Shown here piece by piece: positions 6,248 to 23,385 of a stretch of DNA of 64,000 bases (its first letter is position 1; each line of letters begins with the position of its first letter). The stretch comes from Streptomyces sp. PCS3-D2 (lineage in GTDB: Bacteria; Actinomycetota; Actinomycetes; Streptomycetales; Streptomycetaceae). The notes below the pieces were generated by a model. That model did no database searches. It was not told where the DNA came from and saw nothing but the letters and a program-made list of their open reading frames with translations. A program made the position numbers and the translations under genes. Where the stretch lies: positions 248,001-312,000 of the forward strand of contig NZ_CP097800.1 in assembly GCF_000612545.2 (NCBI RefSeq). Direction: 5' to 3'.

Positions 6248-9687
<3,440 letters not shown>

Positions 9688-13060: not shown

Positions 13061-14470
13061 GTGAGGCGCAGGCTCCTCGCCGTTCTGACGACGCTCATGG
13101 GCGTCGCGGCGCTGCTCCTGTGCCTCCCGTTCGCCGAGGGGTACGCCCGCGGTCGGACCGAGCATCTGCTGCTCCAGCGGCGCTCCGAGGCCGTGCGCTT
13201 CGCCGGCCTCGCGGAGCGGATGCGTACCGAGGCCGACCGGGCGGAGCTGGCGGCCGAGATCGGCCGGTACGCCGAGCTGTACGGCGCGGGCGTGGTGGTG
13301 GTCGACTCGGCCGGCGCGACGTCGGCGCGGGCCGGGGCGGCGCCGGGCGCCGGGGTGGCGGAGGCGCTCGGGCGGGCACTGACCGGCCGTTCCACCGAGC
13401 GGCTCCCGACCCTGCGCCCGTGGGGGCCGGGGACCGTCGTGCTCGCCGAGCCGGTGGGCCGCGACGAGCGCGTCAGCGGCGCGGTCCTGCTGGCGGTCCC
13501 CACCGATACCGCCCGCCGGGACGTCACGGTCCGCTGGACGCTCATCGCCGCCGGGGCGCTCGCCGCGTTCGCGACGGCCGCCCTGGTCGCCGCGGGAATC
13601 GCCCGCTGGCTGGTGCGGCCGCTCCTGGACCTGGACCGGGCGGTGGAACGGCTGGCGGCCGGCAGCCTGCGGGCCCGGGCCGGATCGGACACCGGCCCTC
13701 CCGAACTGCGGCGCCTGCGGCAGCACTTCAACGCCATGGCCGAGGCCGTGGCCGACTCCATCGGCCGTCAGCGCGACTTCGTCGCCGACGCCTCCCACCA
13801 GCTGCGCAATCCGCTCGCGACGCTGGTGCTGCAGCTGGAGAACGTCGAACCGCACATCGCCCCCGGACCGGGCCTCGCCGAGCACGCCCGCGCCCTGGAC
13901 GAGGCGGAGCGCCTGGAGGAACTGCTCGACGGTCTGCTGGCGCTGGCGCGCGTCGAGTCCGGCACGGCCGAGCCGACGGACCAGGACGTGTCGCACGCGG
14001 TACGGCACCGGGTGGTGGCCTGGGACCCGGTCTTCCGCGCGGCGGGGCTGGAACTGTCGGCCGCCGGTGTACCGGACGGCCTGTGGGCGCACGCCCTGCC
14101 CGACGCAGCCGGCCGGATCCTGGACGCGCTCCTGGACAACGCGGTCAAGTTCGTGCCGTCCGGCGGACACGTCACGGTGGAGGCCTCCCGGCAGGCGGAC
14201 GGAAGCGCGCTGGTCCGGGTCGCGGACGACGGTCCGGGCGTGCCCGAGGAGCAACTGGATCTGCTGCTGCGGCGGTTCGCCCGCTCCCCCGCGCACCAGA
14301 ACGTCCCCGGCAGCGGGCTGGGCCTGGCCATCGCCGACGAGATCGCCCGGGTCAGCGCCGGCCGCCTCGAACTCGCCGCGAACGCCCCACGCGGCCTGGT
14401 CGCGCGTCTGTGCCTGCCGCCGGCCCGGGACTCCCGGCCGGTGCGTGGGCCGGAGGTGCGGCAGCCCTGA
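13061..14470 (+). CDS. Sensor histidine kinase
   Basis: 469 aa from a GTG. Two membrane helices (about 5-25 and 160-185) flank a short extracytoplasmic sensor of roughly 130 residues. HAMP-like linker, then the H-box FVADASHQLRNPLATL, N-box LDALLDNAVKFVP, G1 VADDGPGVPEEQ and G2 GSGLGLAIADEI are complete, so it should be an active kinase of the response regulator just upstream. Convergent with the TAXI solute-binding lipoprotein; pairs of this kind may use the lipoprotein as a ligand-capturing co-sensor, which is inference. Confidence 0.93.
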   Translation: MRRRLLAVLTTLMGVAALLLCLPFAEGYARGRTEHLLLQRRSEAVRFAGLAERMRTEADRAELAAEIGRYAELYGAGVVVVDSAGATSARAGAAPGAGVAEALGRALTGRSTERLPTLRPWGPGTVVLAEPVGRDERVSGAVLLAVPTDTARRDVTVRWTLIAAGALAAFATAALVAAGIARWLVRPLLDLDRAVERLAAGSLRARAGSDTGPPELRRLRQHFNAMAEAVADSIGRQRDFVADASHQLRNPLATLVLQLENVEPHIAPGPGLAEHARALDEAERLEELLDGLLALARVESGTAEPTDQDVSHAVRHRVVAWDPVFRAAGLELSAAGVPDGLWAHALPDAAGRILDALLDNAVKFVPSGGHVTVEASRQADGSALVRVADDGPGVPEEQLDLLLRRFARSPAHQNVPGSGLGLAIADEIARVSAGRLELAANAPRGLVARLCLPPARDSRPVRGPEVRQP

Positions 14471-14583: not shown

Positions 14584-15549
14584 TCAGCCGTAGACCGCTC
14601 GGTAGTACGCAGCCGCGCCCGGGTGGAGGGGGACGCGTCCGGTCGAGATGGCGAAGCGCGGCTCCAGGCGGGCACCGGCGGTCACCTCCCGCAGGAGGTC
14701 GCGCCAGCGGTCGAAGACCACCCGCAAGAGGTCCCGCACGACGCCCTCGGCCACGTCGGCACGGGCCAGGAGGTAGTTGCCGACACCGATGGTGCCGACC
14801 GGATCGGTCAGCCCGTAGACCCCGGCCGGCAGGGTGACCGCCGTGTAGACCGGTGCGTGGCGGGCCCGCAGCGGCCCCACGTAGGCGTCCAGCGGCAGGA
14901 AGCGCAGGGGCAGTTCGCGTGCCAGTGCGGACAGGGACGGTGTGGGCACGCCCCCGGACCAGAACAGCGCGTCGACCGCGCCGTCGCGCAGCGCGGCGAC
15001 CGACGGGGCGAGGCCCAGGGGGCGTTCGTCGGCCGGTGCGGCTCCGCCGGCCGGTGCGGCCGCCCGCAGGACCCGCTGGGCGACCACCCGTACCCCCGAG
15101 CCCGGTGCCCCGGCCGCGACCGGGCGCCCGGCGAGGTCCGCCACCGCATGGACCGGGCCGCCGGCCGGGACGGCGAGGTGGGTGTAGTTGACGTAGACGC
15201 GGGCCAGCGCCGTCACCCCCGCCGCGGGCGTGGGGAAGGAGTCCCGCCCGAGGACGGCGTCCTCGGCGGCGTCCGCCATGGCCAGGGCCAGCTCCGCGGA
15301 TCCCTCGTCGAGGCCGCGCAGGTTGTCCACACTCGCCGCCGTACTGACGGGGACGATCTCCAGCGGCAGGCCGCTCGCCCCGACAGCGAGCGCCAGGGCC
15401 TTGCCGAAGGCGTTGTACGGGCCGCCCTCCGGACCCGTCGCGAGCCGCAGCCGCCGGACGGGGCGGGGGTGCCGCGAGCACCCGGCGAGCGCCGTCGCGG
15501 TGGCGCCGAGCCCGGCGGCCAGCACGGCGCGGCGAGACGGTCGGTTCAT
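14584..15549 (-). CDS. TAXI-family TRAP solute-binding lipoprotein
   Basis: 321 aa from the ATG at 15549. A twin-Arg-like/lipoprotein signal (PSRRAVLAAGLGATATALAGC) ends in the lipobox LAGC. The mature protein starts LRLATGPEGGPYNAFGKALA, the characteristic beginning of TAXI-type periplasmic binding proteins, and has ELALAMADAAEDAV, the GPVHAVADLAGRPV lid and a typical C-terminal helix. TAXI proteins normally deliver carboxylates or amino acids to a TRAP permease, yet no TRAP membrane gene is in the window; the neighbours are a two-component system and a cyclodipeptide locus. A sensory role is a reasonable alternative. Confidence 0.85.
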   Translation of the reverse strand: MNRPSRRAVLAAGLGATATALAGCSRHPRPVRRLRLATGPEGGPYNAFGKALALAVGASGLPLEIVPVSTAASVDNLRGLDEGSAELALAMADAAEDAVLGRDSFPTPAAGVTALARVYVNYTHLAVPAGGPVHAVADLAGRPVAAGAPGSGVRVVAQRVLRAAAPAGGAAPADERPLGLAPSVAALRDGAVDALFWSGGVPTPSLSALARELPLRFLPLDAYVGPLRARHAPVYTAVTLPAGVYGLTDPVGTIGVGNYLLARADVAEGVVRDLLRVVFDRWRDLLREVTAGARLEPRFAISTGRVPLHPGAAAYYRAVYG

Positions 15550-15785
15550 CGGCCGGCCTCCGGTGTGTCGTCGGGCGAACGGGGTGGCCCCCATCATGCG
15601 CCACACGGCCGGGCGGCCGTTCGGACCGGCGAAGGATGCCCAGGTCAACTGGTCTGTCCGCCAGATGAGTTACTACCCAGAAGACATGGAACGTCGCTCA
15701 GAGTTCGGGTACCTTCCATCACGTCGCCGCCACACCCGGGGCACAGGGCCCCACGGGACTTGCGGCGCAAAGGACCCGACCCCTG
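15550..15785. other. Divergent intergenic region (TAXI gene / cyclodipeptide synthase)
   Basis: 236 bp without a credible gene. It is less GC-rich than its surroundings near 15650-15700. A weak inverted repeat GAAC-N10-GTTC is seen around 15692-15709 but nothing strong enough to call an operator. Confidence 0.4.
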
Positions 15786-16493
15786 TTGACGACAGCGACC
15801 GAAGTCTTCACAGTCCGGCCATACACCCCGCACTGCCAGGTGATCAACGACGAGGGCGATCACGCCGTCATCGGCATCTCGCCCGGCAACAGCTATTTCT
15901 CAGCACAGCGTGTCCTCGATCTCGCCCAGTGGGGCATGCGCAACTTCGCGCAGGTCGACCTCATCTACACCGACATGCACGTCGCGGAGATGTACGAGGC
16001 CCTCGGATACGGCGAGGACGAAGCACGCCGCAAGGCGGTGAAGAACCTGCGCGGAGTCCGCGCCAAGGTCAACAACGCCGCCGCCGAGGCCGACCCCACC
16101 GGTGTCCGCCTCCGGGCGCGCCCGATGTCCTCCCTCACCGACATCCCGGCGTACCGCACACTCCACAGCCACCTGATCAACCTGCTCGACATCGATGCGG
16201 AGTTCCGCGAGACCTGCAACTGCCTTGTCGATGCGTTCCTTTCCTCGAAGGTGCTGAACGGGAAGGCCGCCACCGCCCGTCAGCGCGAGGTCTGCCTGGA
16301 ATACGTCTGCGCGGAGGCGCCGCTGTTCCTGGACACGCCCGCCATCCTGGGCGTGCCCTCCTCCCTCAACTGCTACCACCAGCTCCTGCCCATGGCGGAA
16401 CTGCTCTACTCGCGCGGCTCGGGGCTTCGCGCCTCACGCAACCAGGGCCACGCCGTCATCACCCCCGCCGAAGGAGATTCCGATGCCCGCTGA
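15786..16493 (+). CDS. tRNA-dependent cyclodipeptide synthase (NYH subfamily)
   Basis: 235 aa from a TTG preceded by AAAGGA. CDPSs take two aminoacyl-tRNAs and form a 2,5-diketopiperazine. All AlbC catalytic positions are present with one uniform offset of 5: the nucleophile Ser32 and Asn35 in GISPGNSYF, Tyr173 and Glu177 in EYVCAEAP, Tyr197-His198 in NCYHQ. Asn, Tyr and His place it in the NYH subfamily. Its stop overlaps the start of the P450 gene by 11 bases, so both are one translationally coupled unit. Because the P450 closely resembles Mycobacterium tuberculosis CYP121, cyclo(Tyr-Tyr) is the best guess for the product, but the pocket residues were not read reliably. Confidence 0.93.
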
Positions 16494-17667
16494 CACCCTC
16501 CTCGACTTCCCGTTCTCCGCGCGCGGCGACCAGCTCCCGGCCGAGGTCGAGCAGCTGCGGAGTGAGCCGGTCAAGCGCGTCCGCACCATTGCGGGCGACG
16601 AGGCCTGGCTGGTCTCGTCCCATGCGCTCTGCAAGCAGGTCCTCGAGGATCCGCGTTTCAGCCTGAAGGACACCTCGGCCCCCGGCGTGCCCCGGCAGTA
16701 CGCGCTGACGATCCCACCCGAGGTCGTCAACAACATGGGCAACATCACCGGCGCCGGCCTGCGCAAGGCCGTGCTCAAGGCGATCAACCCGAAGACCGGC
16801 AACCTCACCGTCTGGATGCGCGAGCAGGCGAACGGCCTCGTCGACGACCTCCTGCGCAGCGGTGCACCCGTCGACCTGCGCGGCCGGTTCACCAATCCGT
16901 ACGCGGAGAACCTCCACTGCCGCATCCTCGGCATTCCGGAGGCCGACGCCCCGCGCCTGGCCGCCAGCCTCGACATCGCGTTCATGAACTCGGCCTGCCC
17001 CGTCACGGGCGCCAAGCTCAACTGGGACCGCGACATGGCCTACATGGTGGAGCGGCTCGACGACCCGGCCACCACCGGCCTGATGGCCGAGCTCGCCGCA
17101 CTGCGCGAGGATCCCGACTACGCGCACCTGACGGACGAGATGCTGGCGGTCGTCGGCGTCACACTGTTCGGCGCCGGTGTCATCTCGACCATGGGGTTCC
17201 TGACCATGGCGATCGTCTCGCTCCTGCAGAACCCCGACGTGTGGGAGCAGCTGCGCAAGGCCCCGGAGAAGATCCCGGCCGCGGTGGACGAGCTCCTGCG
17301 CGTCAATCTGTCGATCGCGGACGGGCTGCCGCGCCTCGCGCTGGAGGACGTCACCCTCGGCGACGTCGAGGTGAAGAAGGGCGAACTGCTGCTCGTCCTG
17401 GTAGAGGCCGCCAACACCGACCCGGCCGTGTACTCCGACCCGCACGTCTTCGACATCGACCGCGGGAATGCCGGTACCCACCTGTCGTTCGGCGGCGGAC
17501 CGCACTACTGCCCGGCCACCGCGCTCGGAAAGCGGCACACGGAGATCGCCATCGAGGTGCTGCTGGAGAAGATGCCCCGCCTGCAGCTGGCCGTGCCCTT
17601 CGACCAGCTCGTCTGGCGCACCCGGTTCATGAAGCGCCTGCCGGAGCGGCTCCCCGTCCTCTGGTAG
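16483..17667 (+). CDS. CYP121-like cytochrome P450 acting on a cyclodipeptide
   Basis: 394 aa, ATG after AAGGAG. Haem-binding FGGGPHYC; I-helix [12 protein letters not shown]. It resembles remembered CYP121 (Rv2276, 396 aa) along its whole length: FSARGD near the start, [29 protein letters not shown], and the ending [19 protein letters not shown]121 makes the C-C bond of mycocyclosin from cyclo(Tyr-Tyr). CYP121 residues Thr229 and Ser237 are kept, but the active-site pair Gln385-Arg386 appears as Met383-Lys384 in an ungapped C-terminal alignment. So a tyrosine-type diketopiperazine substrate is likely, with possible change of recognition. Ferredoxin and reductase partners are not local. Confidence 0.92.
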
Positions 17668-21261: not shown

Positions 21262-23385
21262 CTAGGCCCGTACCGGCGCGGCCGCGAGACGGGAGTCCTG
21301 GGTCAGGGACCGTGCGCGGGCGATGACGAGGGCCACGTCGTCGTGGTCGTCGGGGCGGCGCAGGGAGTCCAGGAGCCGGTCGCAGGTCTCCTCCAGGGGG
21401 CGCCCGGTGTCGGCCAGCAGGTCCAGCAGGAGACCGAGGCGCTCGTCGATGGGCTGGTCACGGGTCTCCACCAGGCCGTCCGTGTAGAGCACCAGTTGGT
21501 CGCCGGGGGCCATGGCCACGGTGGTCGCCTCGAAGGGGATGCCGCCCACGCCGAGCGGTGCTCCGGTGGGCAGGTCGAGCAGCCGGGGTGCGTGGCCCGC
21601 CCGGATGAGCACGGGAGGCAGGTGTCCCGCGACGGCGATGCGGCATTGCGCGCGGTGCGGGTCGTGGACGACGTAGACGCAGGTGGCGATGGTCTCCTCC
21701 AGGGCGGCCGTGGTGCGGTCCAGCTGCTGGAGCACCTGGGGCGGGTCGAGGGCGAGTTCGGCGAGGGTGCGGGTCGCGGTGCGCAACTGCCCCATGCTGG
21801 CTGCCGCGTTGATCCCACTGCCCATGACGTCGCCGATGACGAGGACGGTGGTGTCGTCCGGTCCCGCAATGGCGTCGAACCAGTCGCCGCCGATCTCGCT
21901 GCTGGCCGCGGCAGGCCGGTAGCGGGAGGCCACCTCCAGACCGGGTGTGGGCGGCGGGTGGTGGGGCAGCAGGTGGTGCTGGAGGGCGAGTGCGGTGTGG
22001 TGGGCGTTGCGGTACCAGCGGGCGTTGTCGATGCACACGGCTGCGCGCGCGGCCAGTTCGCCGGCCAGCACGATGTCGTCGTCGTTGAACGGGAGCGGAT
22101 TGCGGGTGCGTTTGAGGTCCAGGGCGCCCAGGACCTCGCCGCGCGCGATGAGCGGGACGGCCAGGTAGGAGCGCAGTCCGGCGCGGGTCAGGAGGGAGGC
22201 GGCGTTGCTGTCGCGAGCGATCCGGGAGATGTCCCTGGCCTGCACGTGGGCGACGAGGACCGGGTGGCCGGTGGTCACGGACCGGGTGACCAGCCGGTCG
22301 GCGGCGTAGCGGGCGATGTCTCCCGGCGGGTCCGCGGCGCGGACGGCCTCGCTCGGATAGGCGGCGGCGACGGCGAGGGCGCGGAACACGGCCGGCTCGT
22401 GGGCCGACGACCTGAGCGTGGGCCGCCCTTCGAGGACCGAGTCGAGGATGTCGACGGCGGCGATGTCGGCGAGCTCGGGCACGACGACGTCCGCGAGCTC
22501 GCGGGCGGTCTGGTCGAGGTCGAGGGTGGTGCCGATGCGGACGGTGGCGTCCGCGATCAGCGCGAGGCGGCGGCGGCTGCGGGCGATCTCGAGGGCCGCC
22601 TGGTGGCTCTGGGTGACGTCGACCACCGAGGTGGCCAGGCCCAGGACCCGTCCGGTGGCGTCCTCGAGCCGGTAGTAGGACACCGACCAGGCGTGTTCGG
22701 TGCGGTGCCCGCCGTGGGTGCGTCCGGCCGTGAACTGCTCCAGCAGCGGAGTCCCGGTGGCCAGGACCTGGCGCATCGCCGACTCGGCGGCCTCCGTGTC
22801 GTCGAGGAAGGACAGGGCCTCCCGGACGCCCCGGCCGATGTGCTCGGAGGCGGGCAGCCCGTTGATCCGCTCCAGCGTGGGGTTGACCAGGACGTAGCGC
22901 AGCTCAGTGTCCAGGACGGCGAGCCCGATCGGGGACTGGGCCACGAGGCGGGCGGAGAGGGCGAGGTCGCGCTCCAGCTGCCGCAGTGTGGTGCGATCGG
23001 TCGCGATGCCCAGGGCGTACAGGTCGCCGCGATCGTCGAGCAGCCGCATGTTGCGGAACTCCACGAGGCGTGTGCTGCCGTCCTTGTGCCGTACCGGGAA
23101 GGCGCCCGCCCAGTCGCCGGCGCCGCCCATGACCCGGGCGAACAGCTCCGTCACCAGTCCGACGTGCTGCGTGTCGGCCAGCAGCCGGGCCGCGGGCTGG
23201 CCGAGCGCCTCGTCCGCCGCCCAGCCGAACAATTGTTCTGCTTGTGGGCTCCACAGGGCGACCCGGCCGTCGGAGTCGAGCACGACGGCGGCCACGTTCA
23301 GGACGTCGAGGAGGCCGCTCGGCGGGGCGATCCCGGCTGCGCCGGGCTGGCTCTCGCTGGTCCCCGACCCGTCGATCGCACCCAT
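21262..23385 (-). CDS. PAS-PAS-GAF-SpoIIE (PP2C-type) protein phosphatase
   Basis: 707 aa, ATG preceded by AAGGGAG. Two PAS domains (about 22-140 and 145-270), a GAF domain (about 285-445; LRSYLAVPLIARGEVLGALDL) and a C-terminal SpoIIE phosphatase domain with the metal-binding EIGGDWFDAI, VIGDVMGSG and DDVALVIAR. Such multidomain phosphatases dephosphorylate STAS antagonists in response to signals bound by the PAS/GAF part. It could serve a STAS protein like the one at 6248-6616, but no direct link is visible. No membrane helices; cytoplasmic. Confidence 0.93.
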   Translation of the reverse strand: MGAIDGSGTSESQPGAAGIAPPSGLLDVLNVAAVVLDSDGRVALWSPQAEQLFGWAADEALGQPAARLLADTQHVGLVTELFARVMGGAGDWAGAFPVRHKDGSTRLVEFRNMRLLDDRGDLYALGIATDRTTLRQLERDLALSARLVAQSPIGLAVLDTELRYVLVNPTLERINGLPASEHIGRGVREALSFLDDTEAAESAMRQVLATGTPLLEQFTAGRTHGGHRTEHAWSVSYYRLEDATGRVLGLATSVVDVTQSHQAALEIARSRRRLALIADATVRIGTTLDLDQTARELADVVVPELADIAAVDILDSVLEGRPTLRSSAHEPAVFRALAVAAAYPSEAVRAADPPGDIARYAADRLVTRSVTTGHPVLVAHVQARDISRIARDSNAASLLTRAGLRSYLAVPLIARGEVLGALDLKRTRNPLPFNDDDIVLAGELAARAAVCIDNARWYRNAHHTALALQHHLLPHHPPPTPGLEVASRYRPAAASSEIGGDWFDAIAGPDDTTVLVIGDVMGSGINAAASMGQLRTATRTLAELALDPPQVLQQLDRTTAALEETIATCVYVVHDPHRAQCRIAVAGHLPPVLIRAGHAPRLLDLPTGAPLGVGGIPFEATTVAMAPGDQLVLYTDGLVETRDQPIDERLGLLLDLLADTGRPLEETCDRLLDSLRRPDDHDDVALVIARARSLTQDSRLAAAPVRA

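Follow-up and report, generated by a model that had tools for sequence, protein, structure and literature searches.

The window, by which we mean the whole 64,000-nt stretch of Streptomyces sp. PCS3-D2 DNA analysed here, carries on its forward strand a gene for a cyclodipeptide synthase (CDPS) and a gene for a cytochrome P450, with a conserved hairpin just upstream. The CDPS gene (15786..16493) starts with TTG and encodes a 235-aa protein predicted to be a cyclo(L-Tyr-L-Tyr) (cYY) synthase of the GymA type. The P450 gene (16483..17667) encodes a 394-aa GymB-type member of the CYP121 family, predicted to couple cYY intramolecularly and also to a nucleobase. The two ORFs share 11 nt, and the coordinates given by the first-pass annotation, which had placed two overlapping ORFs at 15786-17667, were borne out. 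The Shine-Dalgarno sequence of the CDPS gene, AAAGGA (15769..15774), lies 11 nt before the TTG; all eight of the nearest relatives shown (L002-L009) have the TTG start, together with AAAGGA or GAAGGA. That of the P450 gene, GAAGGAG (16470..16476), lies within the CDPS gene, and the two genes are likely translationally coupled. Purifying selection was evident on both genes in all nine comparisons with close relatives, with dN/dS values of 0.13-0.19 for the P450 and 0.08-0.21 for the CDPS. The host genome (7.63 Mb, 3 contigs) contains a single CDPS match and a single P450 of the CYP121-like kind.

From a scan of GTDB contigs, the best 80 of 186 relatives were kept. Around 80 loci, annotated with a home-made gene caller, no gene family recurred near the pair in more than 4 of 23 P450 groups, and further tailoring genes were rejected; the sole family reaching 4 groups was an antisense shadow ORF. 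Because no other gene family was seen to accompany the pair, the operon was taken to consist of two genes. Most neighbours of the pair in the window were kept in close relatives only. Just upstream of the operon, a histidine kinase gene (13061-14467, forward strand) stands beside a gene for an NMT1-like binding protein (14587-15648, reverse strand). The window also encodes, at 6423-9686 on the forward strand, a protein of 1088 aa in which the haem peroxidase domain PF00141 matched two stretches, and a 707-aa PAS/GAF/SpoIIE protein at 21265-23385 on the reverse strand. At E <= 1e-100, a CYP121-like P450 was present in 70 of 296 Streptomyces genomes, with G004 and G285 giving a partial match only; in a phylum-wide sample of 396 genomes, four had a match at E <= 1e-90, one of them outside Streptomyces. 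Plasmid carriage was rejected, the P450 having no match at E <= 1e-80 in 72,556 plasmid records. A CDPS-P450 pair of this kind outside Mycobacterium is common and already published.

The AlbC residues S37, N40, Y178, E182, Y202 and H203, which we take to be the catalytic positions (N40, Y202 and H203 presumably forming the NYH trio), correspond to S, N, Y, E, Y and H in the window CDPS; all six mapped correctly at the constant offset of 5 reported in the first-pass annotation. The protein scored 427.7 bits against the NCBIfam model of cyclodityrosine synthase (NF052540; cut-off, 300) and also passed PF16715. Its best solved relative was Rv2275 (E 3e-95, 64% identity). The motifs of the two substrate pockets, VGITMLFN for pocket P1 and LAFSQLP for pocket P2, stand together in a single row of Table 2 in PMC5816076. 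There, the P1 motif of the cYY set is given as VG[IV]TMLFN, the set consisting of CDPSs 94-97, four NYH enzymes of Streptomyces and Streptacidiphilus. Positions 65 and 200 of pocket P1 were taken from this text, the others are presumed, and the pocket P2 positions were fitted to the form of the motif. As a control on this motif reading, we used the locus of Streptacidiphilus melanogenes (L046), a species whose CDPS is reported in the same text to make mainly cYY; its motifs, VGVTMLFN / LAYSQLP, likewise match a row of the table, a different one. A pocket fitting non-aromatic residues had been named beforehand as a possible refutation; the pockets found are of the Tyr/Tyr type. The window CDPS is thus predicted to be an NYH cyclodipeptide synthase of the cyclo(Tyr-Tyr) type.

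The closest solved relative of the window P450 was GymB1 (8q6z; E 1.5e-230, 768 bits, 86% identity). Identity was 66% to 8q6x and 61% to CYP121A1 of Mycobacterium tuberculosis, with which the P450 aligned over the full length (E 2.4e-158), as had been noted earlier. The similarity of the two proteins to Rv2275 and CYP121A1 is far beyond chance; both families are shared with M. tuberculosis, where the gene order is presumably that of the window pair. Over the columns compared, GymB1 and the P450 of Streptomyces flavidovirens DSM 40150 (L010) showed 100% identity. A tree built from 106 P450s put the window enzyme into a clade of 89 rows together with GymB1, 8q6x, CYP121A1 and Nocardia (SH-aLRT 100), CYP121A1 being nested inside the actinobacterial gym clade; PtmB, 9o4d and loci with Trp-type CDPSs lay outside it, across a long branch. 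The tree was rooted at its midpoint, and 38 of its 103 inner branches were weak. The rows set aside were duplicates (L082-L085, L105, L109), partial P450s (L102, L103), CDPS pieces of insufficient length (L027, L036, L039) and loci without a CDPS (L092, L096); L061 was additionally excluded from the upstream comparison. The other refutation foreseen was a P450 placed among guanine-transferring or dimerising enzymes. In the tree, the window P450 sits in the cYY clade, apart from PtmB, which couples cWW to nucleobases, and far from the dimerase P450s, which scored about 160-180 bits against it.

We compared the 18 pocket positions of CYP121A1 named in PMC11084333. The window P450 equals GymB1 at all 18, the haem cysteine equivalent to C345 included, and this one string is common to 87 of the 106 P450 rows, window and GymB1 among them. 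Residues M62, V78, F280, Q385 and R386 of CYP121A1 are replaced in the window P450 by L, I, I, M and K; CYP121A1 and the probably mycobacterial L108 deviate from the GymB1 string at these five positions, and the combination Q385/R386 occurred only in these two among the 106 rows. Wherever the partner CDPS is of the Trp type (13 of 13 rows), the P450 carries S229 and I385. In CYP121A1 numbering, T229/M385 accompany Tyr-type and S229/I385 Trp-type CDPSs, a possible specificity code. The window P450 is predicted to be of the GymB type, with the dual function of the gym family.

According to a review (PMC10092475), expression of six gym pairs in S. albus led to mycocyclosin together with two nucleobase adducts, guatyromycine A with guanine and guatyromycine B with hypoxanthine. 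The gym BGC of Streptomyces and the window locus have the same gene order, genus and P450 pocket letters, and each has a CDPS of the cYY type; the organism differs. GymB1 differs from the window P450 by 14%, and the ratio of mycocyclosin to adducts is not readable from the sequence. From the GymB1-like pocket, the clade placement and the published gym products, the likeliest reading of the window pair appears to be gym chemistry, not mycocyclosin alone. A P450 strictly equivalent to CYP121A1, making mycocyclosin without nucleobase coupling, would be in keeping with the clade and the 61% identity shared with CYP121A1, with the cYY-type CDPS and with the description of CYP121, in PMC11610984, as acting on cYY alone; it is nevertheless improbable, because all 18 pocket positions are those of GymB1, five of them (62, 78, 280, 385, 386) unlike CYP121A1, and because the six gym pairs also yielded nucleobase adducts (PMC10092475). 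The first-pass designation of the locus as mycocyclosin-type agrees with the Tyr/Tyr pockets and the cYY clade but appears too narrow, as the P450 is of the GymB type and published gym pairs also give nucleobase adducts. Nor did its opposition of mycocyclosin to guanine transfer survive: the gym family is dual-function, and guanine transfer does not refute mycocyclosin because gym pairs are reported to make both.

Under gym chemistry, the gene pair would very probably join two tyrosines into a ring and then cross-link this ring or attach a DNA-type base to it. The two genes would form a gym-type operon of their own, in which the CDPS would draw tyrosine from two Tyr-tRNAs to form cyclo(L-Tyr-L-Tyr), as its family, motifs and characterised relatives suggest. 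By a radical route, the P450 would either join the phenol rings, giving mycocyclosin, or attach guanine or hypoxanthine to the ring system, giving guatyromycines; for this step GymB1 and the published gym family serve as the model. The enzymes are a further member of that family.

The first-pass description began at 15786 and left out the structured leader immediately upstream. In the alignment of upstream DNA, this stretch was better kept than coding sequence would suggest. The conserved hairpin (15725..15767) ends 1 nt before the Shine-Dalgarno sequence of the CDPS gene. It is formed by a 6-bp helix P1 (15725-15730 with 15762-15767), a CC/GG step of 2 bp (15735-15736 with 15755-15756) and a 5-bp helix P2 (15738-15742 with 15748-15752) with a 5-nt loop; a strongly conserved internal loop, CACA / GACUA, lies between P1 and the CC/GG step. 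A pattern search found the leader at 91 of 103 loci; L108 was judged false and removed, and the remainder gave 82 distinct sequences (alignment A2). Missed by the pattern were 12 loci (L027, L049, L066, L068, L073-L075, L092, L094-L096, L104). Model R1 recovered seven of them (L027, L049, L066, L068, L092, L096, L104), bringing the leader to 97 of 103 loci; it found none before the CDPS of the Nocardia loci L073-L075, nor in L094, L095 and L108, the last having a P450 92% identical to CYP121A1.

In A2, 96.6% of 1066 cells were paired, compared with 92.2 +/- 0.3% after shuffling and 36-50% when the arms were slid by 1-3 columns. Two-sided changes occurred at 6 of 13 pairs, in 76 cells against 23.0 +/- 9.7, and none of 500 shuffles did as well. 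Because kinship among the sequences inflates covariation counts, we used independent contrasts on the supported branches of the P450 tree; summed over the six pairs, the concordant contrasts came to about 8.2 and the opposite ones to about 0, with the partner unchanged in about 5.8, and no individual base pair was significant by itself on this tree. Length changes inside the hairpin were confined to one loop. In the internal loop, A18, A46 and C47 were each kept in 80 of 82 leaders at positions that the search pattern left half free. Since the pattern fixed C17, C19, A20 and the CC/GG pairs and limited G45-C47, it accounts for part of the loop invariance in A2. Of the seven leaders that the model alone recovered, two retain CACACC and three have TACACC instead (T at 17), while L027 and L104 depart further from it.

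Helix P2 was part of the minimum-energy fold of all 82 leaders. For P1, a second register lies three columns off (A2 columns 10-13 / 13-16 versus 50-53), and RNAalifold chose it. This alternative pairs 309 of 328 cells (225 Watson-Crick, 84 G-U), whereas the adopted register pairs 317 of 328 (310 Watson-Crick) and includes 13-53, the pair with the strongest two-sided change (C-G in 40, U-A in 37). The lowest-energy folds used the adopted register in 63 of 82 leaders, the alternative in 11 and neither in 8. A slip between two P1 registers three bases apart could be part of a switch. Taken singly, the leaders often have unremarkable folding energies, with z < -3 in 3 of 8 of the CDPS type; the window leader stood at -1.46, with 17 of 200 shuffles as good. 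Known RNA families were rejected, as no Rfam 15 family matched the leader at its curated score and the sole match in a permissive search of 15640-15830 was a microRNA family at E 9.3.

Model R1 had one match in the host genome at E <= 1; at E <= 0.01 with strict filters, it matched 79 of the 296 Streptomyces genomes. Linkage was counted by joining CDPS matches at E <= 1e-15 (199 of the 296 genomes) with the P450 list at E <= 1e-100, the P450 lying at most 600 nt downstream of the CDPS and the leader at most 400 nt upstream. The leader preceded 48 of 51 CDPS matches followed by a CYP121-like P450 and none of the 35 without one. Of the three exceptions, one stems from a gene split in two, of which it is the second half, and the other two accompany those full-length P450s that diverge most (47 and 52%). 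Counted from the P450s, the leader was found at 78 of 80 CYP121-like enzymes. It is common to Tyr-type and Trp-type CDPS genes. The gut/ptm loci for cWW-nucleobase products (PtmB, GutD) share the P450 family and the CDPS-P450 order with the window but differ in their Trp-type CDPS pocket (LG[VI]ALFF.) and in a P450 that is 47-62% identical and carries S229/I385, not T229/M385; of the 16 non-gym loci retrieved, 14 have the leader. Two of these, L092 (G085:C91) and L096 (G114:C61), found through the model only, have a CYP121-family P450 behind the leader and no CDPS match alongside. The pocket string of the L096 P450 is altered.

Sixteen of the 94 R1 matches precede no listed P450. Seven of these stand before a LuxR gene (L141, L143, L146, L147, L150, L152, L153), two before a broken or partial CDPS/P450 (L145, L149) and three before an apparent CDPS start recognised by eye, with no gene-length match (L140, L142, L148); L144 has nothing recognisable behind it, and L151, L154 and L155 were judged chance matches. 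The leaders of L140, L142, L145, L148 and L149, with their decayed or incomplete CDPS-P450 remnants (three of them seen by eye), suggest that the operon has been lost repeatedly within Streptomyces. Across the class, R1 matched 17 of 345 genomes, six of them outside the genus: G836 had a strong match with a CDPS-P450 pair by eye, and the five weak matches (L167-L171) were judged chance.

The variant before LuxR genes, which R1 matched more weakly, lies directly upstream of small single-domain LuxR/GerE proteins (115-125 aa where measured); besides the seven Streptomyces loci named, it was seen in L172-L175 and L179-L181. In a set of 10 LuxR loci, R1 found the leader at E < 0.01 in five (L172, L174, L175, L179, L180), L173 and L181 gave weak partial matches that were aligned by hand, and L176-L178 had no R1 match. 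Model R2 comprised 33 leaders, nine of the LuxR type. In this set, 93.7% of cells were paired, and two-sided changes were found at 9 of 13 pairs, in 41 cells against 11.6 +/- 3.7 (0 of 500 shuffles). In 199 genomes, R2 matches up to E 3e-4 preceded CDPS-P450 operons (some decayed or incomplete), P450s without a CDPS and LuxR genes, together with one match in G117 with nothing recognisable behind; the next match came at E 0.0165. None of ten LuxR-type leaders had a folding energy z below -1.5. In several, inspection by eye suggests a possible hairpin around the start, in which the Shine-Dalgarno region would pair with codons 4-6; these codons may be constrained by the protein.

CDPSs bind tRNA acceptor arms, and the leader might be an autoregulatory site at which the CDPS meets a mimic of such an arm; its presence before both Tyr- and Trp-type CDPS genes would suit this. 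We consider this very unlikely, since the leader is missing from all 35 CDPS matches without a CYP121-like P450 and does occur before P450 genes with no neighbouring CDPS. In addition, LuxR-type leaders occurred in seven genomes with no CDPS match at E <= 1e-15 (G014, G023, G056, G080, G101, G139, G164), and the CDPS is therefore disfavoured as the trans-acting factor, although in G080 a further leader stands before a sequence that by eye resembles a CDPS remnant (L142).

A -10-like hexamer, TACCTT (15710..15715, forward strand), starts 15 nt before the hairpin, and the transcript would start at the hairpin foot. Relative to the hairpin, a TANNNT or TTGACT-like box starts exactly at -14 in 53 of 82 leaders. 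The count for a -35/-10 pair immediately ahead of the hairpin was also 53 of 82, compared with a mean of 0.2 (maximum 4) in 200 base shuffles, the patterns having been chosen after looking. Since this pair ends just before the hairpin, the hairpin was placed at the 5' end of the mRNA. The TTGAC-like -35 is absent from the window and its nearest relatives, which keep only the -10-like box; because its clade lacks this element, the promoter type of the window clade (15660-15715) may differ from that of most gym and gut leaders.

The conserved -35/-10 elements directly upstream, and the fact that palindromic sites are common operators, could also point to a DNA operator or merely a conserved promoter-proximal stretch. 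This is an unlikely explanation: the arms of P1 and P2 vary yet stay complementary across clades and LuxR-type leaders, P2 has a 5-nt loop, hairpin length changes in one loop only among the 82 leaders, and the estimated transcript start places the element inside the mRNA. We infer that the leader acts as RNA, and we infer likewise the direction of its control and its trigger. With a covarying structure and a conserved unpaired core, and with its mRNA-leader position deduced from the promoter, it shares these features with riboswitches. Like riboswitches and protein-binding leaders, it is a short covarying hairpin with a conserved internal loop adjoining the ribosome binding site, and like structured mRNA leaders it is common to two unrelated gene contexts; unlike them, it matches no Rfam 15 family.

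Three specific mechanisms found no clear support. For an anti-Shine-Dalgarno stem downstream of CDPS-type hairpins, the mean stem was 3.95 versus 3.91 in shuffled sequences, and 40 of 80 leaders exceeded their own mean. A leader peptide was inconsistent: from the estimated start to the end of P1, 10 of 82 leaders contain an ATG and 35 of 82 any start codon. An intrinsic terminator after the hairpin was not apparent, as 5 of 82 leaders had TTTT in the 40 nt that follow.

The leader could also be a simple 5' hairpin without a signal, shielding the mRNA or fixing a constant level of translation. This would account for the position at the likely 5' end and would fit the outcome that CDPS-type leaders yielded no switch partner. 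It has a modest chance of being correct, but stability needs no conserved internal loop, and a plain hairpin would not be restricted to two gene contexts.

The leader is conserved, covaries and is genomically linked to CYP121-like P450s, and it is a strong candidate for an undescribed cis-regulatory RNA. No published control element for CYP121-family CDPS operons was among the literature matches listed, of which only part came from a search with RNA terms, and the leader was not mentioned for the gym BGC among the matches listed. The explanation that we favour, with a probability of roughly three in four judged from sequence comparison, is a gym-type operon whose translation would be controlled at the leader hairpin. 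The pair would be controlled at a conserved hairpin at the mRNA 5' end, 1 nt before the Shine-Dalgarno sequence; a ligand or protein at the internal loop would hold P1 closed and hinder ribosome access to the CDPS start, and the P450 would follow the CDPS by coupled translation. More tentatively, and at somewhat less than even odds, the leader may represent a new regulatory RNA class, a riboswitch or protein-sensed element, that in Streptomyces gates both small LuxR regulators and nucleobase-coupling cyclodipeptide-P450 operons at the level of translation, perhaps senses guanine/hypoxanthine or the cyclodipeptide product, and was apparently lost towards the mycobacterial CYP121 locus.

If regulatory, the leader would matter more than the enzyme pair, which adds one species to a published family. 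The mycobacterial pair, which lies inside the lineage, apparently without the leader and with five pocket differences, becomes a framed question. Being tied to the lineage of CYP121-like P450s, the leader would offer a handle for switching on these clusters and for asking which signal they answer.
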